From Ruegeria sediminis (GTDB lineage Bacteria; Pseudomonadota; Alphaproteobacteria; Rhodobacterales; Rhodobacteraceae): a stretch of 64,000 nt of DNA. The notes under the pieces are model-generated. The model was not told the origin of the DNA and ran no database searches. It was given only the letters and a program-made list of their open reading frames with translations. Made by a program: the position numbers and the translations under genes. This document shows, in pieces, positions 19,115 to 50,813 of the stretch; position 1 is the stretch's first letter; every line of letters starts with the position of its first letter. The stretch lies in NCBI RefSeq assembly GCF_005938215.1, contig NZ_VCPD01000003.1, positions 62,001-126,000 of the forward strand. Direction: 5' to 3'.

Positions 19115-19591
19115 TCAGGCGCGGTAGAACAGGTAGCGGTCCGGCGCGATGCTGTCCGGGCCGGTGATCCGCTCGAACCCCACCAGCGGCTGTCCCGAAA
19201 TCAACAGCCCGCCGGCCTGCATCACCCTTGCGATCAGCGGGCTGAGCCGCGCGGCCTCGGCCACGTCGTCCTCCTTGATTCCCATGCCGAAATCGTAATG
19301 CGCCAGGGCGATCCGATGCCCGTCCCTTGCCAACCGTTCCAGCATCGGTTCGGCCTCGCCCTGCAGGAAATCCTCTTCGGGCGGTTCGCAGGACGGATGG
19401 CATTGCAGCACCCGGTCCATCACCCAGATTCGGCGGTCGGGCAGGATTTCGCGCAGATGGTCATAGGTGCGACCATTGCCGAGGCCCATGTCCAGCACGT
19501 CGCCCTCGTGATCCGCGATCTGCGCCGCGGCCCAGTTCAGACCGTCCCTCTGGGCGGTCAGGCGGCGCAGCATGGAATCCAGTCGGCTCAT
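19115..19591 (-). CDS. Class I SAM-dependent methyltransferase-like protein
   Basis: This 158-residue protein has the SAM-binding glycine loop LDMGLGNGRTYDHL near residues 34-47 followed by an acidic/aromatic motif (WVMDRVL). It is short for a methyltransferase and lacks an obvious substrate domain. A clear paralogue sits at 35931-36428, sharing the GLGNGRTY motif and a closing RYLFYRA/RCFVYRR end. The ATG at 19591 is chosen, with AAGGGA 6 bases ahead, over an upstream TTG. Target unknown. Confidence 0.72.
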   Translation of the reverse strand: MSRLDSMLRRLTAQRDGLNWAAAQIADHEGDVLDMGLGNGRTYDHLREILPDRRIWVMDRVLQCHPSCEPPEEDFLQGEAEPMLERLARDGHRIALAHYDFGMGIKEDDVAEAARLSPLIARVMQAGGLLISGQPLVGFERITGPDSIAPDRYLFYRA

Positions 19592-19602
19592 CGGCAATCC
19601 CT

Positions 19603-20361
19603 TCAGGTTCGGTCCGCCGGCGCGGTCCAGACGCGCACGGGCCCGGCCATGAGGCGGCGGATCAGCGCCCCGGTAAAGTTCCAGATGTCTTGATCATGGA
19701 CCAGGTGATGCGTCAACAGCCCGAACGGCTCGGCATTGTCCGCCCAGCCCTCGCGGCGCTGCTGCAACAGGGATGCGAGCCGCGCAACCAGAATCTCCGG
19801 GTTCGTCAGCCCCCTAGTCCCGCGCCAGTCGATCGGGTCGAGATGGGTGTTGACCTGCTCCAGCCCCGGCACCGCCAGACGCGCGGTGCGGGGTGTGGCC
19901 GTTGAGAGAACGCGAAACCCCAATTCAGGCAGTCTGGCCACGACCTCGGGCGCGATCCGGTTCCACGGCGGCACGAAGATCGGTCGCAGGGCCGGGCCGA
20001 ACAGCGCGGTCAGCCGCGCCAGCCCCGCCTCGGCATCCGCCAGAATCGCCTCCAACGGGCGATGCAGCCGGAATTCGGCCTTCTTTTCGCCTGCCGGGGC
20101 ATGGTTCCGGTGCGCCCAGCCGTGAACGACAGGGATCAGATGCGGCCGCGGCTGCAGGTATCCCGCCAATTCAATATCGGCAGGTTGCGGTATGACGGCC
20201 AGATGCACGGGCAGGCCGATGCGTTCGGACAGGTCCGACAACCGGTCGAGTTCCGGCGTCGGGGCGACCGCGTCGTCGTCGCGCCACCAGAGGGGCAGGA
20301 TCAGCCCCTCTTGTTGCCAAAGCTCCAGTTCGCGGTCCAGCGGCGTCCAGTCGGGTATCAT
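19603..20361 (-). CDS. Polysaccharide-deacetylase-like protein
   Basis: This 252-residue protein resembles the NodB-like carbohydrate esterase fold: LWWRDDDA supplies the metal-binding Asp pair near the N-terminus, VVHGWAHRNH supplies the His ligands, and RPIFVPPWNR is the typical arginine-proline motif. These enzymes remove N- or O-acetyl groups from glycans. Its start overlaps the upstream glycosyltransferase stop by 4 bases. No signal peptide is seen, so a cytoplasmic substrate such as a sugar or lipid-linked intermediate is likely. Confidence 0.8.
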   Translation of the reverse strand: MIPDWTPLDRELELWQQEGLILPLWWRDDDAVAPTPELDRLSDLSERIGLPVHLAVIPQPADIELAGYLQPRPHLIPVVHGWAHRNHAPAGEKKAEFRLHRPLEAILADAEAGLARLTALFGPALRPIFVPPWNRIAPEVVARLPELGFRVLSTATPRTARLAVPGLEQVNTHLDPIDWRGTRGLTNPEILVARLASLLQQRREGWADNAEPFGLLTHHLVHDQDIWNFTGALIRRLMAGPVRVWTAPADRT

Positions 20362-21500
20362 CGCAGCGCCCCGACCAGGGATTCGGTGATCGCGACCGAG
20401 CGCGCCGCGCCGTCGAAGGACAGGGCCAGGTCCGGGCGGGGACCGGCGGTAATCACCCGGCCGACAGCATCGGCCAGAGTGGCGCCGGTCAGGTCCGCGC
20501 TTGCCAGCACCTCGATGGCGGACAGGTGCGCAAGGCTCTGGGCCCGCAGGCCCTGTTCGACCTCCTTGCCGTCGTCGAACGGGATGAAAACGGCCGGAGT
20601 GCCGCCTTGCAGCAGGTCGAGTGCGGTGTTGTAGCCGCACATGCTGACCGATGCGGCGGCAAGCGGCAACATCTGCCGAAAGTCGGGACGCGTGGGCTCG
20701 ATCAGGATGGGCGTGTCGCCGGCCAGCCGCTCCAGTTCGCGGATGCGGTCCGCGGCATCGCGCCCGCCCACCAGCAGCCGCCAGCGCCGGTCGGTGATCC
20801 TGCCGGCGGCCTCGACGGCGGCGCGGAAGATCGGATCGCCCACCGACCCGCCCCCGGCGCTGACCAGGATTTCACCCGCCCCGAGGTTTTCGGGATGCGG
20901 TGCCGCCGGGGCCGGGGCGACATAGCCGGTATAGTGCAGCCGCTCCGCCAGGGTATCTGAGACCGGCCAGCTGGTTTCCAGCCGCGTGCCTTGGGGGTCG
21001 GAATGCACCAGCACGCCGTCATAATGGCGCGCGACGACCGCCTCGGTGCGCGCGACCTTGGACGGCTTCGAAGGCGGCGCAAGGATGTCCCGGATCGAAC
21101 TCAACACGACCGGGCGCGGCGTCAAGGTGTGCGCCGCATCAAGCAGCGTCTCGAATTCCGACGACAGGACCCTGCGGCCGAAGGGGAACAGCTCTGTCAG
21201 CAACACATCCGGCGCGAACCGGGTTACGGCGCCGGCAAGAGCGTCGGCGCGGGACTGCAGGTAAGCCGGATCCGCGACCTCGCCGGTCTCGGTCAGCAAA
21301 CGGGTGAAGTCGGTTCCGTCCGAGCGCAGCGGCGGCAGCCCGAGCATCTCGATGCCGACGGCGCTCAGCTGTGGGGCGGGCATTCCGCCCGACACCAGCA
21401 AAACCTCGTGACCGGCTTTCCGGAACGCGTGCCCCAGCGTCAGTGCCCGGCTCAGATGGCCGGTGCCCAACAGATGCGTGACGACGATCATCACTTTCAT
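20358..21500 (-). CDS. GT-B glycosyltransferase, MurG/family 28-like
   Basis: This 380-residue protein has the GT-B layout: an N-terminal acceptor domain opening with VVTHLLGTGHLSRA and a C-terminal nucleotide-sugar domain with GGGSVGD and the SMCGYNTALDLL/GGTPAVFIPF pattern also seen in MurG-like enzymes. The gene at 24398-25612 is a related protein (GLGHLRRS, GGYNTFCEVL). It overlaps the deacetylase and histidine-phosphatase genes by 4 bases each. Donor and acceptor cannot be assigned. Confidence 0.8.
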   Translation of the reverse strand: MKVMIVVTHLLGTGHLSRALTLGHAFRKAGHEVLLVSGGMPAPQLSAVGIEMLGLPPLRSDGTDFTRLLTETGEVADPAYLQSRADALAGAVTRFAPDVLLTELFPFGRRVLSSEFETLLDAAHTLTPRPVVLSSIRDILAPPSKPSKVARTEAVVARHYDGVLVHSDPQGTRLETSWPVSDTLAERLHYTGYVAPAPAAPHPENLGAGEILVSAGGGSVGDPIFRAAVEAAGRITDRRWRLLVGGRDAADRIRELERLAGDTPILIEPTRPDFRQMLPLAAASVSMCGYNTALDLLQGGTPAVFIPFDDGKEVEQGLRAQSLAHLSAIEVLASADLTGATLADAVGRVITAGPRPDLALSFDGAARSVAITESLVGALR

Positions 21501-22081
21501 GCGGCACCCTCCTTGCGCGGCAGCCGCACCGGTTCCGGCGCGGGCCGCATGTGGTCGAGGTCGATGACATAGAGACGGTTGCGCTTGATCCGGAATGGGG
21601 CGGGGCCATCGAAGTCCCATCCCCAGGCTTTTGCCAGGATCACCCGCATGATGCCGATATGGCAGACCGCCAGCGTATCCGCGGACAGCCCCTCCAGCCA
21701 CGGCCGCAGGCGCAGCCAGACCTCGGCCGGGCTTTCGCCGGCGGGGGGGCGGAAATCCCAGCTCCAGTCCTCGATATGCCGGTAGCCGCTCTCCGGTTCG
21801 GCGATCAAGTTCAGGCCGCGCTGACCTTCCCATTCGCCCCAGTTCATTTCGATCAGTTCGGCAGCGAGGCGGGGTTCGCGCCGTGCCACGAGCCTTGCCG
21901 TTTCCCGCGCCCGCGCCAGCGGGCTGGACCAGAGTTCGGCCTTGTCCCAGGGTTCGGGCAGGCCGTAGCCCGCCAGGTCCGCCCGGGCCTCGGTGTCGAG
22001 CGGTATGTCGCTGCGCCCCTGGATCCGGCCGGCGCGGTTCCAGTCGGTATGGCCGTGGCGCAGCAGGGCGAGGCGGGTCAT
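21497..22081 (-). CDS. Histidine phosphatase (phosphoglycerate mutase-like)
   Basis: This 194-residue protein begins with the histidine phosphatase signature LLRHGHTDWN, whose His is phosphorylated in catalysis; the second catalytic His lies in VCHIGIMRV. Members dephosphorylate sugar phosphates and cobalamin precursors among others. Its place inside a glycosyltransferase operon, with 4-base overlaps on both sides, suggests a sugar-phosphate or similar substrate. Confidence 0.85.
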   Translation of the reverse strand: MTRLALLRHGHTDWNRAGRIQGRSDIPLDTEARADLAGYGLPEPWDKAELWSSPLARARETARLVARREPRLAAELIEMNWGEWEGQRGLNLIAEPESGYRHIEDWSWDFRPPAGESPAEVWLRLRPWLEGLSADTLAVCHIGIMRVILAKAWGWDFDGPAPFRIKRNRLYVIDLDHMRPAPEPVRLPRKEGAA

Positions 22082-23154
22082 GTCGCGCCCTCCAGCAACG
22101 GGTTCACCGCGGTCCAGAAGGTGCGGGTGGCGGATGGGATCAGGTGCCGTTCGGCGATGCGGGCGCGCGCCTTGGCCCCCGTGGCGCGACGCAGGCCGGG
22201 ATCGGCGCGCAACCGGTCTATGGCGCGGGCCAGCGCGGCGGGACCATCCTCGACGGACGGGTAGCGGGCCGGCAGCAGAACGTCGCGCACGCCGGGCCGG
22301 TCCTGCGCCACGACCGGCAGTCCCACGGCCTGCGCCTCGAGATAGACCATGCCGAAGGCTTCGTTGACGCCGGGCCAGAAGAACAGCGAGGCGCGGGCAT
22401 AGGCCGCCTGCAACGCATCCCGGTCCAGTTGGCCCAGGAACCGGACGCGATCGCCAAAGGGGGCCAACAGCGCCTCGACCTCGGCGCGCGCCGGGCCGTC
22501 CCCGGCGATTTCCAGCGTCCAGTCGTCTGCCAGGTGGCCCAGGGTCTGGGCGATGATCCGGTAGGAACTCAGCTTGTCGCCCGCCCGCATCATCCCCGCC
22601 GCCAGCATCGGCCCCTCGCAATCCGAGGCTTCGGGCAGGCCGGAAGCCGGCAGGAACGGGGTGAGATGGACGAGGGACTGATCGCCGAACCGCTCCCGCT
22701 TCAGCGTGATCAGGTCGTTGGCCGTGTGGTAGAAGATCACGCGGGCCGCATCGCAGGCGTCATGCGCGGCCTTGGCGAAACCGGCCCACGGTCCGTCAAG
22801 CCGGCTGGTGGCGCGGGTGCTTTCCAGTTGGACATAGGGGATCCCGCGGGCGCCGCAGACGGCGGGGCCAAGCAGATCGGGCGCCTTGTAGTAGTTGTGA
22901 TAGGTGACCCAAAGGCCGAAATCGTCGGGCAAGGTGTCGATCAGCCGCTGCGCCTCGGTTTCGGCGGCCTCCCGCAGCCGGGCCTGAAGCCCTGCATCCC
23001 CGGACTTGTCGTAGATCCGCAACTCCGACACCAGGTCCACCTGCGCCCCGTCCGCCCGGATCGCGGCCATCAGGTTGCGCGCCATTTCCCGGTCGCCCGA
23101 CGGGACCGGGCTGTGGGGGGACTTCATGGGGGCGTAGAAGGCGACGCGCGTCAT
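22078..23154 (-). CDS. Family 4-type glycosyltransferase
   Basis: This 358-residue protein has the GT4 C-terminal features: an EIAGDGPARAE segment, VRFLGQLD, and the donor-binding FFWPGVNEAFGMVYLEAQA motif with its conserved EAFG..E glutamates. The N-terminal domain starts AFYAPMKSPHSP and holds VTYHNYYKAPD. It probably transfers a hexose from a nucleotide-sugar to an acceptor at the inner face of the membrane. It overlaps the phosphatase gene by 4 bases. Confidence 0.85.
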   Translation of the reverse strand: MTRVAFYAPMKSPHSPVPSGDREMARNLMAAIRADGAQVDLVSELRIYDKSGDAGLQARLREAAETEAQRLIDTLPDDFGLWVTYHNYYKAPDLLGPAVCGARGIPYVQLESTRATSRLDGPWAGFAKAAHDACDAARVIFYHTANDLITLKRERFGDQSLVHLTPFLPASGLPEASDCEGPMLAAGMMRAGDKLSSYRIIAQTLGHLADDWTLEIAGDGPARAEVEALLAPFGDRVRFLGQLDRDALQAAYARASLFFWPGVNEAFGMVYLEAQAVGLPVVAQDRPGVRDVLLPARYPSVEDGPAALARAIDRLRADPGLRRATGAKARARIAERHLIPSATRTFWTAVNPLLEGAT

Positions 23155-23159
23155 GACCG

Positions 23160-24401
23160 TCAACCGCAGCACAAATCGTGCAGGCGCCCGGACAGGCGCG
23201 CGATGCCGGGGGCCATGCGGAACTCGGAGACAAGGCGGGATCGGGCCGCCTGCGCCATTGATGCCGCACCGCCGGGGTCCCGGGCGATCGAGGCGATCGC
23301 CCGGGCCAGGGCGTCGGGCGCGTCGTCGCAGAGGGTTCCGTGCCGACCGTGCTCGACGAATTCCGGAATGGCCGAGACCGGGGTCGCCAGGATCGGCAGC
23401 AGTTGCGACGCGGCCTCCATCAGCACGTTCGGCAACCCGTCGCGATCCCCGTCCGAGGCGATCCGGCTGGGCAGCACGAACAGGTCCGCCTGCCGCATTT
23501 CGGCGATCACTTCGGGCTGATCGCAGGCGCCGCGCCACGTGATCCGGTCGGCCACCCCGGCGGCTTCGGCCTGCGCCTGCAATCGGTCGCGCAAGCCGCC
23601 GCCGCCGATATGGGTCCAGCGCCAGTCCAGGCCGCTCGGCAGGCGGCTGAACGCCTCGATCAGCCGGTCAAAGCCCTTCTTCTCGACCAGCCGGCCGACC
23701 GACAGCATGTGAAACGGATCCTGCGGCGCGCGCGGCGCGCGTTCCGGGGGCAGGGGAAACCGCGAAAGGTCCAGCCCGTGATAGATCAAGTCGATCCGTG
23801 CCGGGTCGTCCGCCAGTTCCCGCAGATGCCGCGCCCCGATGCCGGTGCATGTCGCGCCGAAGACCGCCCCGTGGGTCGCGGCCTGCAACTTCTCCCGCTT
23901 TTCCCATTCGGGCGAGGTCCAGATGTCCTTGGCGTGGGCGGAAAAGCTCCAGGGCAGGCCGCGCATGATGGCCGTGTAGCGCGCAACGGACGAGGGCGTG
24001 TGCATGAAATGAGCATACAGCGCACGGGTTTCCGCGGGCAGTTCCGCAGCCAGCACGCAGGCCTGCCCGAAACGGCGGATCCGGTTGGGCGTCCGGTCGC
24101 GCCGCAAATCCGCGCGCCAGACCTCGTAGGCCCGGGCATAGCCGGGCAGGCGCTGCGCCGCCGCGCGGGCGCGCCAGACGCGGCCGGGTTCCTCGTAGAG
24201 GTATTCGGGCAGGTAGTGGACCCTGGCCCTGAGCCGGTCATGCAGGGGATGCCGCTTGGTGTCGGTCGGATGCCGCAGCGACCAGATGTCGAACCGGTGG
24301 CCGGCCTCTTCCAGCGCGACGAGTTCCTGCGCGATGAAAGTCTCGGACAGGCGCGGCCACCCCTTGACCAGCACCGCCAGTTTCGGCGCCTTTCCGTTCA
24401 T
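23160..24401 (-). CDS. Family 4-type glycosyltransferase
   Basis: This 413-residue protein opens with LVKGWPRLSETFI, the typical start of colanic-acid/exopolysaccharide GT4 enzymes, and has a SAHAKDIW acceptor-domain motif, SVGRLVEKKGFD in the donor domain, and DGLPNVLMEAAS as the EX7E-like motif. It overlaps the upstream glycosyltransferase gene by 4 bases and precedes the next by 5. With two GT4 and two GT28-like enzymes the operon could assemble a four-sugar unit. Confidence 0.86.
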   Translation of the reverse strand: MNGKAPKLAVLVKGWPRLSETFIAQELVALEEAGHRFDIWSLRHPTDTKRHPLHDRLRARVHYLPEYLYEEPGRVWRARAAAQRLPGYARAYEVWRADLRRDRTPNRIRRFGQACVLAAELPAETRALYAHFMHTPSSVARYTAIMRGLPWSFSAHAKDIWTSPEWEKREKLQAATHGAVFGATCTGIGARHLRELADDPARIDLIYHGLDLSRFPLPPERAPRAPQDPFHMLSVGRLVEKKGFDRLIEAFSRLPSGLDWRWTHIGGGGLRDRLQAQAEAAGVADRITWRGACDQPEVIAEMRQADLFVLPSRIASDGDRDGLPNVLMEAASQLLPILATPVSAIPEFVEHGRHGTLCDDAPDALARAIASIARDPGGAASMAQAARSRLVSEFRMAPGIARLSGRLHDLCCG

Positions 24402-25612
24402 CCGGTGGCCCGTTCCCTGTCCTCGCCCAACATCAAGCTGATCCGCTGCGTCACGTAATCCAGACCGTCCAGTAGCCCCGCGCCGATCGCCTGCGACGGC
24501 AGAGGCTGGCTGGGCAGGGCGCGGATCGCTTCGATCATGGAGCCCGCCGTCAGCCCGTCGCGGTATTCGTCCAACATCCGGACCAGCCCCAGTTCCTCGG
24601 CCCGCGAGGCGCGGATCCATTGTTCCAGCCGCGGCACGGTGCGCGGCACGATCACCGCGCGCTTGTCGAAGGACAGGACCTCGCAAAACGTGTTGTAGCC
24701 GCCCATGCAGACGACGCCGGCGGCCCCGGCGAACAGCGTCTCGATCTGCGATTCGAAGCCCACTGCCGTGACCCTGCCGCCCAGTGCGGCGACCCGCGTC
24801 TCGAATTCGGCGCGCAACTCGCCCGACAGGAACGGCCCATAGACCAGCACCGCGCGCGGCTCCAGTTCGGGGTCCATCTCGTAGGCGGACAGGACCAGGT
24901 CCACCATCGCGCGGCCATCGCCGCCGCCGCCCGGCGTTATCAGGATGTACGGCTGTTCCGGCGGTTTCCCGACCGGCCCCAGATCGCGGCGCAGATACCC
25001 CGTCCAGTGCATCCGGGCCTGCGCCCCCGGACTCAGCGGCAATCCCGACGTGGGATCGTAGATCGAGCGCAAACCATAGACCCAGATTTCGTGATAGAAC
25101 CGCTCGGTTGCCTCAACCGCGCCCTTTCGCGCCCATTCGGCGGCCAGCACTTCGGGCTCGTCCAGTACGTCGCGAAGCCCCAGCACAAGCTTGGTCTTGC
25201 CCTGCCTGAGCAGGAAGTCCAGCGTCGGCAGCAGTTCGCCGCGAAATCCGGTCGGTTCCTTGTCGACGATCAGAACGTCGGGATGGTACTGCTCGACCGC
25301 CGTGCGGATCAGGCTCGAGCGCAGTTCGGTGACCTCTTCGATCCCCATGCCGATGGTCTGCGCCACGTAGGACCCGTCGGCGCGTTTTGTGACGCCGGGC
25401 AGGCGCACGTGGTCGACACGGCGCGGAAAGGTGAAGCGGCCCGCGACCGGCGAGCCGGTGAGGATCAGCGCCGAAGCGGTCGGATCCGCCTCGGTGATGG
25501 CCGATGCCAGCGCACGCGAGCGCCGCAGGTGACCCAGCCCGAACGTGTCGTGACTGTAGAAAAGAATGCGCGGTGCGCGGCCAGAGTGGTTCAGGTTGCT
25601 TGTCAGGCTCAT
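24398..25612 (-). CDS. GT-B glycosyltransferase-family protein, MurG/family 28-like
   Basis: This 404-residue protein opens with ILFYSHDTFGLGHLRRS, a pattern of glycosyltransferases related to MurG, and carries TPGGGGDG and CMGGYNTFCEVL in the donor domain. It is the first gene of the operon running down to 18411 and follows a plausible promoter at 25666-25694. It is related to the product of 20358-21500 but longer. The ATG at 25612 is used; a GGAGG lies unusually close to it. Confidence 0.8.
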   Translation of the reverse strand: MSLTSNLNHSGRAPRILFYSHDTFGLGHLRRSRALASAITEADPTASALILTGSPVAGRFTFPRRVDHVRLPGVTKRADGSYVAQTIGMGIEEVTELRSSLIRTAVEQYHPDVLIVDKEPTGFRGELLPTLDFLLRQGKTKLVLGLRDVLDEPEVLAAEWARKGAVEATERFYHEIWVYGLRSIYDPTSGLPLSPGAQARMHWTGYLRRDLGPVGKPPEQPYILITPGGGGDGRAMVDLVLSAYEMDPELEPRAVLVYGPFLSGELRAEFETRVAALGGRVTAVGFESQIETLFAGAAGVVCMGGYNTFCEVLSFDKRAVIVPRTVPRLEQWIRASRAEELGLVRMLDEYRDGLTAGSMIEAIRALPSQPLPSQAIGAGLLDGLDYVTQRISLMLGEDRERATG

Positions 25613-26086: not shown

Positions 26087-28465
26087 ATGAAGCAAACGTT
26101 TCTTTTCAGACTCGCCCTGGCATTATGGGTCGCGGTCATGGCGCTCGCGCAGGTCGCGGACGCCCAGACGGCACTGTTGCCCGGCGGTACCTCCGGCAAC
26201 GCGGCCGAAACATCCGCGGCAGGCACGGACGGCGAATTGGCCGAGGCGATCCGCAAGGCCACCGAAGCCGGCGCCAGCGTCATCGTGATCGACAGCGCCG
26301 GCAAGCTCGTGTCCGACGCGCCCGTCTCCGGCGCCACCGGCGAAGGCGGCGGTGCCGACGCGATGTCGGAAGGTTCGCAACTGATGAAGGCGCAGGAGCA
26401 GCTTTCGCAATTCCGCGAGCGGCTGGAAGCCCGGCTCGAAGCGTGGCCCCATTCCGTGTTCGAGGTTCAGTACATTCTGCGCCAGACCAGCCCGGACGGG
26501 CGCATCCAGACCTATGTCGAGGTGCTGTTCTGGAATATCCTGCTGCTGCTGCTCGGACGCTGGCTGTCGGTCGAGCTATACGGCAAGCGTTTCGCCAAGC
26601 GGTTCGTCGTGGCGCGGATCAAGGAAGACCCGGTCGGCTATCGCGAAAAGATGCCGTTCCTCGTGTTCCGCTTCCTGATGGGGATCGGCGCGACCGTCTT
26701 TGCGATGCTGATGGCGCTGATCGTCGGGTACCTCATCTTCGGCCGGGCCGAGGACATCTCGATCCAGTTCACCGTGACCGCGATCTTCACCGCGTTTTTC
26801 CTGGCCCGTACGGTTTCGGACCTGTGGCGGATGGTGCTGTCGCCCTTCCTCAGCCAGTACCGCCTGCCGCCCTTCTCGGACAAGGACGCCAAGCGCCTGT
26901 ATTTCTGGGCCGCGGCGCTGGCGACCTATGAAATCGTCGTGGTCCTGTTCTCGACCTGGGTGGCCGATTTCGGGCTCAACTACAACGTCTACGCGCTGGT
27001 CTATGGCGGCCTGACGCTGATCGGGGCCTGCGGCAACATCCTCATGGTGCTGTTCAACGCGCGCGCGATCTCCAATGCGATCCGGGGCGGCAGATCGGCG
27101 GATCAGGTATCGTGGATCCTGCGCTTCGTCTCCTTCGCCTGGGCGCCGGTTCTGATCGTCTACGTCCTTTTCAGCTGGTTCGAACTGGCCCTCGACCTGG
27201 TGCTTGAGAACCCGGTCTCGATCCCGCTGGTGGTAGGAACCTATGCCGTCTTCATGTCGGTGGTCGTCGCCTATGGCGCGATGAACTATCTGCTCGAACG
27301 CTATTTCGACCGCTACCGCCAGATCGAGGAAATCAACGCCGAAGCCGCCGAAGAGGCGGTGGACGAAGACGGCATTCCGCTGGATAAGCCGGAAGTGCCT
27401 CACTACAAGATCGCGACCTACGAAGACCTGGCGCGGCGGGTGGCGGGCATCCTGGCCTTTGTCGTCGGCGCCTATGCGCTGGTCGAGATCTGGTATCCCA
27501 AAGCGAACTGGGCCGATGACCTGCCGGTGGAACGCGGCCTCGACGTCATGGTGATCCTGTTCATCGGCTATATCCTGTTCCACTTCTTCCGGATCTGGAT
27601 CGACAGCAAGATCGCCGAGGAAACCGACGACGGCGCGGCCGAGGCCGAGATGGGCGACGAGGGCGGCGAAAGCGGGCAGAGCCGCCTGGCCACGCTGCTG
27701 CCGCTGTTCCGGGGCGCGATCCTTGCGGTCGTTGTCGTCTCGATCGCGCTCATCGCGCTGATGGAACTGGGGATCAACGTCAGCCCGCTGTTCGCCGGCG
27801 CCGGTGTCGTGGGCCTCGCCGTGGGCTTTGGCGCGCAGACGCTGGTGCGGGACATCTTCTCGGGGGCGTTCTTCCTTATCGACGACGCTTTCCGCAAGGG
27901 CGAATACATCGATATCGGCGAGGTGAAGGGCACCGTCGAAAAGATCTCGGTCCGCTCGATGCAGCTGCGTCACCACCTGGGCGCGCTCAACACCATTCCC
28001 TTCGGCGAAATCAAGGTGCTGACCAACTATTCGCGCGACTGGGTGATCATGAAACTGCCGCTGCGAGTGACCTATGACACCGATGTCGAAAAGGTGCGCA
28101 AGCTGATCAAGAAGCTAGGCCAGGAACTGCTGAGCGACCCGGTGATCGGGGAAAATTTCATCCAGCCGCTGAAAAGCCAGGGCGTGATCGAGATGCAGGA
28201 TTCGGCCATGATCATCCGGGTCAAGTTCATGACCAAGCCGGGCGATCAGTGGCTGGTGCGCAAGAAGGTCTACCAGGAGATTCGCGAACTTTTCGCCCGC
28301 GAGGGCATCAAGTTCGCCCACCGCGAAGTGACGGTCAGACTGGCCGACGAGAAGGATCCCAACGATCTGACCCCGAAACAGCGCGAAGCCGTGACCGGCG
28401 CGGTTCAGGCCGCGATCGACGAGGAATACCTGGACGACATAGGCCCGGGCGACGACGACCGCTGA
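26087..28465 (+). CDS. Large mechanosensitive ion channel (MscS family)
   Basis: This 792-residue protein has a signal peptide (first 26 residues, ending VADAQ), a periplasmic segment with a likely coiled coil around EQLSQFRERLEARLEA, many transmembrane helices between about residues 140 and 560, and a C-terminal MscS domain starting near residue 569 (GAGVVGLAVGFGAQTLV, the pore helix) followed by the beta domain (GEYIDIGEVKGTVEKI). It should open on membrane tension to release solutes during hypo-osmotic shock. It belongs to the long, MscK/YbiO-like group. Monocistronic, convergent with the CoA-transferase gene. Confidence 0.88.
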   Translation: MKQTFLFRLALALWVAVMALAQVADAQTALLPGGTSGNAAETSAAGTDGELAEAIRKATEAGASVIVIDSAGKLVSDAPVSGATGEGGGADAMSEGSQLMKAQEQLSQFRERLEARLEAWPHSVFEVQYILRQTSPDGRIQTYVEVLFWNILLLLLGRWLSVELYGKRFAKRFVVARIKEDPVGYREKMPFLVFRFLMGIGATVFAMLMALIVGYLIFGRAEDISIQFTVTAIFTAFFLARTVSDLWRMVLSPFLSQYRLPPFSDKDAKRLYFWAAALATYEIVVVLFSTWVADFGLNYNVYALVYGGLTLIGACGNILMVLFNARAISNAIRGGRSADQVSWILRFVSFAWAPVLIVYVLFSWFELALDLVLENPVSIPLVVGTYAVFMSVVVAYGAMNYLLERYFDRYRQIEEINAEAAEEAVDEDGIPLDKPEVPHYKIATYEDLARRVAGILAFVVGAYALVEIWYPKANWADDLPVERGLDVMVILFIGYILFHFFRIWIDSKIAEETDDGAAEAEMGDEGGESGQSRLATLLPLFRGAILAVVVVSIALIALMELGINVSPLFAGAGVVGLAVGFGAQTLVRDIFSGAFFLIDDAFRKGEYIDIGEVKGTVEKISVRSMQLRHHLGALNTIPFGEIKVLTNYSRDWVIMKLPLRVTYDTDVEKVRKLIKKLGQELLSDPVIGENFIQPLKSQGVIEMQDSAMIIRVKFMTKPGDQWLVRKKVYQEIRELFAREGIKFAHREVTVRLADEKDPNDLTPKQREAVTGAVQAAIDEEYLDDIGPGDDDR

Positions 28466-35829: not shown

Positions 35830-35930
35830 GAAATTCCTCCTTCCGTGACTACACAAGTTCTTGAGGATTTGGCATGAGTGCGGGGCCGGCCACGATCCGG
35901 CAGCCGTTTTTTCTGAAGGAGAATCCACCA

Positions 35931-36428
35931 GTGTCCGACGATCAAAGCCGCCTCGATCTGTTCATCGACCGGATGGTGTCGCAGCGCGCCTGCCTCGATT
36001 TCGCGATTGCCGAAACGGCCGCGATGACCGGCCCGGTCTTCGAACTGGGGCTGGGCAACGGGCGGACCTACCACCACATGCGCCAGCGGATTTCGGGCCG
36101 GCCGATCCACGTGTTCGAGCGCAAGATGGCGTCGCATCCCGACTCCACCCCGCCGGACGAGATGCTGATCCTCGGCGACGTCCGGGAAACGCTGCCCGCG
36201 TCGCTGGACCGCTTCGGACCCTCGGCCAGCCTGATCCATGCCGATCTCGGCGGGCACAATCTGGAAAAGAACGACGCCTTCGCCCGTCTGATCTCGCCCC
36301 TGGTCGAACCGCTTCTGGCGACGGGGGGGCTGATGGTGTCGAGCGACCGGATGTATTTCGACACGCTGACCGAGTTGCCCGTGCCCGAAGGCGCCGTCGA
36401 AGGGCGCTGCTTCGTCTATCGCCGCTGA
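35931..36428 (+). CDS. Class I SAM-dependent methyltransferase-like protein (paralogue of 19115-19591)
   Basis: This 165-residue protein has the ELGLGNGRTYHHMR SAM-loop motif and aligns over its full length with the product of 19115-19591. The GTG at 35931 is taken as the start because AAGGAG (35916-35921) lies 9 bases ahead; the in-frame ATG at 35874 lacks such a site and would add 19 residues absent from the paralogue. It is divergent from the ABC operon. Target unknown. Confidence 0.72.
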   Translation: MSDDQSRLDLFIDRMVSQRACLDFAIAETAAMTGPVFELGLGNGRTYHHMRQRISGRPIHVFERKMASHPDSTPPDEMLILGDVRETLPASLDRFGPSASLIHADLGGHNLEKNDAFARLISPLVEPLLATGGLMVSSDRMYFDTLTELPVPEGAVEGRCFVYRR

Positions 36429-47733: not shown

Positions 47734-47804
47734 CTGAATACCGCGAAGATCCGTGGCGGAAATGCAGGATGGTTCAACAAGGTTAATCATTAGGGGCCGG
47801 TCCT

Positions 47805-50800
47805 ATCGAACGCACGATTTTCCGCTTCATCTGGAAATACTCGAAACGCGATCAACTGATCCTGCTGGCGGTGACGTCGACGCTGTTTCCGCTGCTGTAC
47901 CTGACGCTGGAACTGCCCAAGCGGATCATCAACGACGCGATCGGCGCCACCAGCGCGACCGTCGAGGTTCTGGGCTATTCGCTCGACCGGACCACCTTCC
48001 TGATGATCCTCTGCTTCGCCTTCCTTCTGGCCGTGCTCGCGCACGGGCTGATGAAGATGCGCATCAACACGATGAAGGGCGTCCTCAGCGAAAGGATGCT
48101 GCGCCGGTTCCGCTACCAGCTGATCAGCCGCATCCTGCGGTTTCCGCAGCCCTATTTCGAACGGGTCAGCCAGGGCGAGCTGGTCTCGATGGTGACCGCC
48201 GAAAGCGAACCGATGGGCGGGCTGATGGGCGACGCGCTGAGCCAGCCGGTGCTGCAGGCCGGGCAGATGCTGACGATCCTGTCCTTCCTGTTTCTGCAAA
48301 GCGTCTGGTTCGGGTTGGCGGCGGTGGCGCTGATTCCGCTGCAGGCGTGGCTGATCCCGAAACTGCAGCGCCAGATCAACCTGCTCAACAAGAAGCGCAT
48401 TCAAGAGGTGCGGGTCCTGGCGGCCCAGATCGGCGAGAACGCGGCCGGGGCATCGACGCTGCGCGGCAATGCCGGCTGGCGCTATCGCAGCGCGATGGTG
48501 TCGCATCAGCTGGGCCGGCTGTTCGACATCCGCTTCGACATCTACCAGAAAAAGTTCTTCATGAAGTTCCTCAACAACTTCATCTCGCAGCTGACGCCCT
48601 TCCTGTTCTATTCGGTCGGCGGCTTTCTGGTGCTGCGCGGACAGGTTTCGCTGGGGGCCTTGGTGGCGGCGCTGGCGGCTTACAAGGATCTCAGCTCGCC
48701 GTGGAAGGAACTGCTCGCCTATTACAACCAGACGCAGGACATGTCGCTGCGGTGGGACGTGGTGATCGAACGCTTCGCGCCGCCCGGCATGATCGACGAT
48801 GCGCTGTTCGAGGGCGAGCCCAAGGAACGCCCGCGCCTGAACGGCGACATCGTGCTGGACCACGTCTCGGTGCGCGACGCCGACGGCAACCATGTGCTTG
48901 ACGATCTCGACATCACGCTGCCCGGCGGCGGCATGATCGGCATTTCCGCCCCCAGCGAGGAAGACCGCCGCGCCATTGCCGACCTGCTGCGGCGCGAGGT
49001 TCTGCCCAGTGCCGGCAAGGTGAGGATCGGGGAAACCGACCTGTCCGGCGTGCATCAGGCCGTCCTTGCCTCGCGGATCGGCTATGCAAGCTCGCGCCCC
49101 GTGATGTTCCAGGGCACCCTGGGCGACAACGTGATGATGCCGATGCGCTACAAGCCGTTGCAAGAGCCGCCCGACGACCCGTTCTTCCACGAGACCCTGC
49201 GCGCGGGCAACAGTTCCGACCCGTTCCACGCCGAATGGCTCGACCCTTCGCTCGCCGGCTTCGAGGACGTGTCGGAGTTGCGCAACTGGTGGCTGCGCCT
49301 GATCGAGGGCATGGGCTCGGGGGCCGCGCTGTTGCGGCGCGGCGCGGATCAGGTCTTCGACGCCGACAAGTATCCGCAACTGGCCGCCAAGCTGGTCGAA
49401 CTGCGCCCGCTGGTGCAGGACGAGGTGCGCAAGGCCGGTCTCGACAAGCAGGCCTACATCTTCGACTGGGACACCTACAACCCCGCGCTGCCGGTGGCGG
49501 AAAACCTGCTCTTCGCCACGCCGCGCGTGCCGGTGACGCAGGAGCTGCTGGCGAAGCAGACCGTGTTTCTGGCGCAGTTGCGGGAACTGGGGCTGGACGA
49601 GACTTTGGTTGGCCTGACCCGCGACGTGATCGACATGCTGCGGCAGATCTTCGGCCTGGACGGCACCGATCACCCGCTGTTCCGTAAGCTGGGACTCGAG
49701 GCCAAGACCTACGAGACAGCCGTCGAACTGGTCGAGAAGACCCGCAGCGAGGGCGCTTCCGCGCTGGACGACACCGAACTGGCCAGCTTCCTGGCCGTGC
49801 CCTTCGTGATTTCGGCCGAACAGATCGGGCCGGCCTTCTCCGCCCAGCTCAAGTGCCGGATACTCGAACTGCGCCACAGCCATTCCAAGAAGCTGCTGGA
49901 AAGCCTGCACGATGTCTTCGCGCCGCTTGAGCCCGGCGATTTCGCGCCCGGGCTGACGGTTCTCGAAAACGCGCTTTTCGGCAAGGTCAGCCAGGTCGGC
50001 GGCGCCCGCACCGACGAATTGCGCAAGCTCATTGTCAACATCCTGTCGGAACAGGGCGCGCGTCCCTACGTGGTCGAACTGATCTACGACGTGCCGGTCG
50101 CGCTGGGCGGCCAGAACCTGCCCGCCGTCTTCGCGGAACCCCTGTCCTTCACCCGCGCGACGATCAAGAAGCCCGACATCCTGATCCTGGATTCCGCGCT
50201 CGCCAGCTTCGACATGAAGACCCAGGTCGCGGTCTACAAGAACCTGCGCGAATTGCTGCCGGACACCACGGTGATCTACATAAACGATCAGTTCCAGGCC
50301 CCCGAGGCCTTCGATTTGCACATCGAGATCCGGCAGGGCAGGATCGTGAGCGAGGAGGCTCCCATGGAATTCGAGGAAGACAGCGCCGCCTCGGCCGACC
50401 TGGCACGCAAGTTGCGGTCGCTGGAACAGACGCCGCTGTTTTCGGGGTTGGACCGGCGGCAGCTGCGGCTCCTGGCCTTCGGCGCGCGTTGGTACAACGC
50501 CAAGGCGGGCGAGGTGGTGTTCCTCAAGGACGATCAGCCGACCGACGGCGCCTACATGATCATCGAGGGCGAGGCCGGGCTGTACCTGCCCAAGGAGGAC
50601 GAAGAGGACCAACTGGTGGCCCGAGTCGGGCCGGGCACGCTGGTGGGCGAGCTGGGCCTGATCCGCAAGGAACCGAGGGCGCTGAGCATGATCGCCGAAA
50701 CCGACCTGACCTGCCTGCGCATCGGCGAAGAGGAATTCCTGGCGGTGGTGGAAAACGACGCCGCGACGGCGTTCAAGCTGCTGCAGGTCGTCGCGGGCTA

Positions 50801-50813
50801 CGTGTCGAACTGA
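47805..50813 (+). CDS. ABC-exporter-like protein with degenerate ATPase motifs, long insertion and C-terminal cNMP-binding-type domain
   Basis: The frame encodes about 1002 residues. Residues 1-330 form an ABC exporter membrane domain. The following ATPase-like domain is abnormal: where Walker A should be (about residues 377-390) it reads GISAPSEEDRRAIA with no GK[S/T]; Walker B ends LILDSALAS, so the usual catalytic glutamate is serine; only LGGQN remains of the signature. About 290 extra residues lie between these sites. The C-terminus (from about 870) is a cyclic-nucleotide-binding fold with GELGLIRKEPRAL. Coding homology extends to residue IERTIFRFIW, with AGGGG 8 bases ahead of an ATC at 47805; the next canonical start is GTG at 47871. 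Confidence 0.8.
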   Translation: MERTIFRFIWKYSKRDQLILLAVTSTLFPLLYLTLELPKRIINDAIGATSATVEVLGYSLDRTTFLMILCFAFLLAVLAHGLMKMRINTMKGVLSERMLRRFRYQLISRILRFPQPYFERVSQGELVSMVTAESEPMGGLMGDALSQPVLQAGQMLTILSFLFLQSVWFGLAAVALIPLQAWLIPKLQRQINLLNKKRIQEVRVLAAQIGENAAGASTLRGNAGWRYRSAMVSHQLGRLFDIRFDIYQKKFFMKFLNNFISQLTPFLFYSVGGFLVLRGQVSLGALVAALAAYKDLSSPWKELLAYYNQTQDMSLRWDVVIERFAPPGMIDDALFEGEPKERPRLNGDIVLDHVSVRDADGNHVLDDLDITLPGGGMIGISAPSEEDRRAIADLLRREVLPSAGKVRIGETDLSGVHQAVLASRIGYASSRPVMFQGTLGDNVMMPMRYKPLQEPPDDPFFHETLRAGNSSDPFHAEWLDPSLAGFEDVSELRNWWLRLIEGMGSGAALLRRGADQVFDADKYPQLAAKLVELRPLVQDEVRKAGLDKQAYIFDWDTYNPALPVAENLLFATPRVPVTQELLAKQTVFLAQLRELGLDETLVGLTRDVIDMLRQIFGLDGTDHPLFRKLGLEAKTYETAVELVEKTRSEGASALDDTELASFLAVPFVISAEQIGPAFSAQLKCRILELRHSHSKKLLESLHDVFAPLEPGDFAPGLTVLENALFGKVSQVGGARTDELRKLIVNILSEQGARPYVVELIYDVPVALGGQNLPAVFAEPLSFTRATIKKPDILILDSALASFDMKTQVAVYKNLRELLPDTTVIYINDQFQAPEAFDLHIEIRQGRIVSEEAPMEFEEDSAASADLARKLRSLEQTPLFSGLDRRQLRLLAFGARWYNAKAGEVVFLKDDQPTDGAYMIIEGEAGLYLPKEDEEDQLVARVGPGTLVGELGLIRKEPRALSMIAETDLTCLRIGEEEFLAVVENDAATAFKLLQVVAGYVSN

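Follow-up and report, generated by a model that had tools for sequence, protein, structure and literature searches.

The window analysed here, a 64,000-nucleotide stretch of Ruegeria sediminis (contig NZ_VCPD01000003.1, positions 62,001 to 126,000), encodes at 47805–50813 a protein that joins an ATP-binding cassette (ABC) exporter frame to a C-terminal cyclic nucleotide monophosphate (cNMP)-binding-type domain. Sequence comparison gives good support to the conclusion that this protein is no ordinary ATP-driven pump: the catalytic motifs are missing across the family sample, the replacements are fixed in close homologues, nonsynonymous divergence (dN) is lowest in the membrane and cNMP domains, and relatives exist that carry the membrane domain only. 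The earlier note on this DNA had proposed a sensor, scaffold or gated membrane protein rather than a pump; the rejection of a normal ATP-driven pump stands, but the sequence does not pick between a sensor, a scaffold, a channel and a non-ATP transporter.

Architecture and loss of the catalytic motifs

The membrane domain had been described as that of an ordinary ABC exporter, and ABC_membrane (PF00664) was indeed matched at residues 40–290 with 60.5 bits against a Pfam cut-off of 28. ABC_tran was not listed by Pfam for this protein even at E ≤ 1, and NCBIfam exporter models matched parts of both halves of the nucleotide-binding domain (NBD) with every score under its cut-off (25 rows shown). 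The predicted fold is nevertheless that of a complete ABC NBD, split by an insertion of about 285 residues (roughly 290 in the earlier note). TmrAB and TM287/288, which together with PCAT1 and MsbA are type-IV exporter kin, were among the structural matches, and by predicted fold and descent (PF00664 plus the NBD fold) the protein is assigned to the type-IV ABC exporter superfamily. The insertion gave no sign of forming an ATP site, because it had no Pfam family and no Foldseek match at E ≤ 0.001, hence no confident counterpart among solved structures.

The catalytic anomalies first noticed by eye were recovered by alignment. The Walker A lysine position is Arg388 (in APSEEDRR), the Walker B Asp796 is followed by Ser797, and Walker A and Walker B lie 408 residues apart by alignment numbering (about 415 had been given), where about 120 residues is usual. 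Losses beyond those already reported concern the signature, the H-loop His (replaced by Asp) and the Q-loop Gln (position occupied by Ser), so that GxxGxGK[S/T], LSGGQ, the Walker B Asp-Glu pair and the H-loop His of an active ATPase are all absent.

The degenerate Walker positions proved to be conserved across homologues, a check that had been suggested: in all of the best 120 records listed from 2562 matches (P0001–P0120, with the window's own protein as P0001), the G4, G6 and Lys columns were occupied by Glu, Asp and Arg. Among the best 120 listed of 6880 matches from a profile search (P0121–P0240), Lys was retained in 115, Asp, Glu or Asn had taken the place of the Ser/Thr in 110, and 115 had Asn or Ser instead of the Walker B Asp. 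Since Ser/Thr and the Walker B Asp serve as Mg2+ ligands, these ligands are lost in the more distant members as judged by alignment. Across a redundant set of 358 family sequences, near-copies included, LSGGQ occurred in none, Lys with Ser/Thr in seven and a Walker B Asp-Glu in five; one sequence (L090) joined Lys, Ser/Thr, Asp and Glu, and it had neither signature nor H-loop His. Intact-motif homologues beside which the window copy would appear as a single decayed one were thus not seen in this set, while GxxGxGK[S/T] and LSGGQ were both found in all eight canonical exporters of the tree used as a control.

Conservation of the family

A full-length copy free of internal stops was found in all 25 genus genomes, the window's own included, at 80–100% identity, and each of the 25 also carries a second paralogue (51–55%). 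With the replacements fixed in 120 of the 120 closest listed records and low ratios of nonsynonymous to synonymous divergence (dN/dS), the motif loss is, on sequence grounds, not decay. Compared with L104, dN/dS was 0.066 for the transmembrane domain, 0.077 for the cNMP domain and 0.065–0.135 for the NBD halves and the insertion; in five other pairs, in which two values were not computable and some synonymous distances were saturated, the corresponding ranges were 0.09–0.21, 0.09–0.14 and 0.10–0.39, the last figure being the highest in any computed part. In every one of the six pairs, the lowest two dN values were those of the membrane and cNMP domains. In a 70-sequence alignment, identity of at least 95% was reached by 27% of membrane-domain columns and by 4–5% of those in the insertion and the two NBD halves; the cNMP part was left unscored, since too few rows carry it. 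This pattern is inverted relative to active exporters, in which conservation runs the other way. An apparently broken extra family copy (L025 3867–5779, genome G019) was also observed as separate fragments (query 390–595 and 602–1001).

Distribution and membrane-only relatives

A family match (E ≤ 1e-40) was present in 96 of 289 genomes sampled from the class, some split over contigs, and in 19 of 200 genomes of a phylum sample, where the sole match labelled as lying beyond the class (G420) was a membrane-domain-only piece. The close relatives at named loci lie in Ruegeria and other Rhodobacteraceae. Ten proteins with open frames of about 315–425 residues had this membrane domain alone (L026 and L186 being near-copies). 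The ten stretches fetched (3–12 kb) contained no frame combining Walker A and signature by a test that was positive in two canonical controls, and no family-type NBD was found by tblastn beside the eight membrane-only relatives tested. A 100/99 branch split the membrane-only relatives and 16 family rows from eight canonical exporters, in a tree whose order within the family side is not resolved and whose long branches were flagged.

L026 (3601–4821), L185 (5543–6781) and L186 encode membrane-domain-only proteins of about 400 aa with no NBD frame found, and the first two appear, by eye from the list of open reading frames (ORFs), to adjoin copper-resistance-type genes. The window's own genome holds a 309-residue relative of this kind on contig C1 (L184 5114–6040), next to a gene that by eye resembles elongation factor P; all 25 genus genomes had a listed match of this kind, equal in extent.

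The cNMP domain

The cNMP fold with a GEL...PRA cassette, claimed on inspection, was borne out by a cNMP_binding (PF00027) match at residues 900–985 (64.9 bits, cut-off 27.5) and by the phosphate-binding cassette VGELGLIRKEPRALSM with its GE and PR pairs. At E ≤ 1 Pfam listed no families besides ABC_membrane and cNMP_binding, and neither is a peptidase. A cNMP domain was paired with the ABC protein in 42 of 42 loci (40 chosen stretches, L021 and the window, with three genomes contributing two each), fused in 14 and encoded by an adjacent separate gene in 28. The separate gene lay downstream within 90 bases in 24 of the 25 counted (619 bases in L072), and in L065, L085 and L086 it overlaps the end of the chosen ABC frame through alternative starts. 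GE and PR were kept in 25 of the 28 separate genes, typically as VGEIAILCDVPRTATV, the exceptions being L085 (GD), L088 (ER) and L089 (no match to the search pattern). GEL...PRA is retained in the window type, and a weakened cassette (GDL...R) occurs in the second Rhodobacteraceae paralogue. The window's own genome (G000) has 25 class III nucleotide cyclase domain matches over the family cut-off and could therefore provide the domain with a cyclic nucleotide. In the available part of the source, the cNMP-type domain of HetC bound ppGpp in vitro and cAMP gave no significant thermal protection (PMC10986499); by analogy, HetC warns that such a domain in an exporter can bind ppGpp instead of a cyclic nucleotide.

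A co-occurring glycosyltransferase operon

The minus strand of the window carries, at 19118–25612, a set of glycosyltransferase genes located 22 kb away from the ABC gene; the earlier note mentioned neither this set nor the separately encoded cNMP domain of relatives nor the unusual start codon. Of the 28 loci whose cNMP domain is encoded separately, 24 had members of the two glycosyltransferase clusters upstream and divergent, immediately or within a few genes (L091), and 12 had a Methyltransf_17 gene following; both counts come from reading the gene-neighbourhood rows. In L062 the divergent operon encodes glycosyltransferases, two of them GT28-like and two of GT4 type, together with a histidine phosphatase and proteins without a known family; the set at 19118–25612 is its counterpart in the window. 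Across the class sample (n = 289) GT28a was found in 93 genomes, the ABC protein in 96 and both in 90; across the family sample (n = 149) the ABC protein was found in 31 genomes and GT28a in 39, and all 31 ABC genomes had both. The conserved operon is highlighted by this association, and its product may need the ABC protein.

Translation start

The ORF lister begins the gene at GTG 47871, and codon 1 at 47805 is ATC, which is not among the standard start codons. Conservation argues for a start at 47805 over GTG 47871. Codon 1 was ATA in 33, ATC in 16, ATG in three and ATT in none of 52 related rows of the window type (L104–L154 and the window, typed by identity without a tree), and ATA made up 3.0% of the Ile codons in the rest of these genes. 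Of the 49 ATA/ATC rows, 26 had no upstream in-frame ATG, GTG or TTG (25 of these also none in codons 2–16) and 23 had one; a Shine-Dalgarno-like motif was present at −16 to −5 in 34 of the 49, versus 5.2% at control positions. The genus set (L001–L020) had ATA in 18 and ATC in two. The same position read ATG in 27, ATT in one and ATA in one of L155–L183 (mostly the second paralogue), and ATG in 24, GTG in four, CTC in two and ATC in one of 31 other homologues. Because the paralogue and the other homologues have mostly ATG or GTG versus ATA/ATC in the window type, the close lineage seems to have replaced its normal start with a near-cognate codon and to have retained it. In the available part of PMC13009471, infC and ccpN of Staphylococcus aureus are reported to have conserved AUA starts by which initiation is limited.

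Proposed function and alternatives

The reading that we favour, with about even confidence, is that of a type-IV ABC exporter derivative that lacks ATPase competence and is probably under nucleotide control and linked to a glycan pathway. Two copies would probably dimerise via their membrane domains and NBD-like halves, giving an NBD pair constitutively unable to run a normal cycle of Mg-ATP hydrolysis. The likely control input would be the C-terminal cNMP domain, which many relatives encode as a neighbouring gene of its own, and the membrane domain would change shape in response to a cyclic or similar nucleotide. As output, a glycan or glycolipid from the co-occurring glycosyltransferase, phosphatase and methyltransferase genes would probably be let through, flipped or gated. 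The sequences show that the motifs are lost and their replacements conserved, and they show the predicted folds, the cNMP pairing and the co-occurrence; the independence from ATP energy and the direction of movement are, like dimer, ligand and cargo, ones that we infer. More tentatively, a large alphaproteobacterial family derived from ABC exporters may have given up ATP hydrolysis for cNMP-driven or cNMP-gated moving or flipping of the glycan of a co-inherited glycosyltransferase operon, with an insertion that would be partly a duplication of its own NBD in an undescribed fold, and with one lineage throttling synthesis via the conserved ATA/ATC start.

Several points weigh against the favoured reading. 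The predicted membrane domain has low-confidence stretches at 158–174 and 287–296, the distant members mostly keep the Walker A Lys, so that nucleotide binding without hydrolysis is possible, and the weakened cassette of the paralogue argues against universal cNMP binding. The Fisher p values for co-occurrence (3e-63 in the class, 6e-25 in the family) treat genomes as independent despite shared ancestry. GT28a was found without the ABC protein in eight of 39 family genomes (three of the eight with a weak glycosyltransferase match only), and the ABC protein without GT28a in six of 96 class genomes. In Rhodobacteraceae the two loci do not form one operon; they lay 17–40 kb apart on one contig in 10 of 31 genomes and on different contigs or far apart in the others. 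A canonical ABC partner may also be encoded elsewhere.

Such a partner would make the protein the degenerate half of a heterodimeric exporter, which we consider unlikely. Heterodimeric pairs can have one degenerate site, TmrAB and TM287/288 are heterodimers, and the genome has canonical exporter-like matches, one of which (L192) carries Walker A and LSGGQ; however, neither the Walker A/B part nor the signature part of a composite site is left here, and the 42 neighbourhoods yielded no recognisable partner gene, a weak negative since the clustering lumped ABC proteins together. Doubtful, if possible, is a non-transport regulator or scaffold, in which a nucleotide-sensing ABC frame would control a partner, perhaps a membrane glycosyltransferase complex, much as the ABC frame of SUR proteins senses nucleotide and controls a partner. 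Loss of the motifs beside an intact-looking cNMP cassette, a highly conserved membrane domain that includes its intracellular stretches, and the glycosyltransferase co-occurrence would all suit it, whereas conservation of the entire membrane domain and the persistence of membrane-only relatives in other gene neighbourhoods better fit a transport-type function.

A non-standard ATPase, its Mg-ATP site rebuilt from other residues together with acidic ones in the altered Walker A, is very improbable: the residues kept and exchanged in P0121–P0240 (Lys in 115 of 120, Asp, Glu or Asn for Ser/Thr in 110, Asn or Ser for the Walker B Asp in 115) are consistent with it, but the window lineage has replaced the Lys, both Gly, the signature and the H-loop, and the insertion has no ATP-site match. 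A decaying or mis-sequenced pseudogene, to which the unusual motifs and an expected start position without ATG could point, is refuted by conservation and has practically no probability left, given stop-free full-length copies in 25 of 25 genus genomes, replacements fixed in 120 of 120 records and dN/dS of at most 0.39.

Relation to known systems

The type-IV exporters (TmrAB, PCAT1, TM287/288, MsbA) share the PF00664 membrane domain and complete NBD fold with the window protein, which differs in lacking a standard Walker A, Walker B Glu, signature and H-loop His and in adding the insertion and the cNMP domain. SbmA/BacA (SLiPT), an ABC-type membrane domain working without ATP, is proposed in the available part of PMC13316013 to descend from ABC transporters that lost their NBD, and is the known precedent for membrane-only ABC relatives in what is available of PMC13316013 and PMC12003926. 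Unlike SbmA/BacA, the window protein retains an NBD fold and adds a cNMP domain; PF05992 (SbmA/BacA) was not listed for it at E ≤ 1 and had no match in the genome, with one in Escherichia coli among the controls. A glutamate ladder in the membrane domain is a further trait of SbmA/BacA according to PMC13316013. HetC of Nostoc likewise combines an ABC exporter with a cNMP-type domain, but according to the available part of PMC10986499 its cNMP domain is N-terminal, it carries a C39 peptidase and an ATPase residue is essential for its function. No C39 peptidase was among the Pfam matches of the window protein at E ≤ 1.

SUR and CFTR resemble it in turning an ABC frame to regulation or gating; they retain nucleotide-binding NBDs, whereas the standard NBD motifs are lost here. 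ATP hydrolysis is regarded as the defining property of ABC transporters. If the favoured reading is true, this widespread family, which retains the entire architecture beside fixed replacements of its catalytic residues, would be another exit route from the primary pump besides SbmA/BacA, caught with the NBD still attached, and it permits the clean question of whether an ABC membrane domain is switched by a cyclic-nucleotide-type signal rather than ATP.

Features of the window

Table 1. Coordinates of the ABC gene, its parts and the glycosyltransferase operon in the window.
Feature	Position	Strand	Remarks
ABC-exporter-like protein, ATPase-dead, with fused cNMP domain	47805..50813	+	1002 aa plus stop, open frame
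Shine-Dalgarno-like AGGGG	47792..47796	+	upstream of the ATC codon
Probable non-canonical start codon ATC	47805..47807	+	ATA/ATC in 49/52 window-type Rhodobacteraceae rows, window included
Type-IV ABC exporter transmembrane domain	47805..48785	+	residues 1–327; most conserved part (70-sequence alignment)
NBD, N-terminal half	48786..49142	+	residues 328–446
Degenerate Walker A, APSEEDRR	48948..48971	+	residues 382–389, by alignment
Insertion, in part an internal duplication of an NBD segment	49143..50003	+	about residues 447–733, after the Q-loop region
NBD, C-terminal half	50004..50369	+	residues 734–855
Degenerate signature, LPAVF (for LSGGQ)	50118..50132	+	residues 772–776
Walker B Asp796, then Ser797 where Glu is expected	50190..50195	+	by alignment
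cNMP-binding-type domain	50412..50810	+	residues 870–1002
Phosphate-binding-cassette-like GELGLIRKEPRA	50646..50681	+	residues 948–959
GT28-like glycosyltransferase, first gene of the operon	24401..25612	-	Pfam 19.5, just under cut-off 22
GT4 glycosyltransferase	23163..24380	-	
GT4 glycosyltransferase	22081..23151	-	
Histidine phosphatase (branch 1)	21500..22072	-	
Second GT28-like glycosyltransferase	20361..21494	-	
Conserved operon protein	19606..20331	-	no Pfam or NCBIfam match
Methyltransf_17 (PF12692) methyltransferase	19118..19597	-	

A second Methyltransf_17 gene was observed outside the glycosyltransferase operon at 35874–36425 (+), and a gene for an MscS-type mechanosensitive channel protein lies divergent from the operon at 26087–28465 (+).
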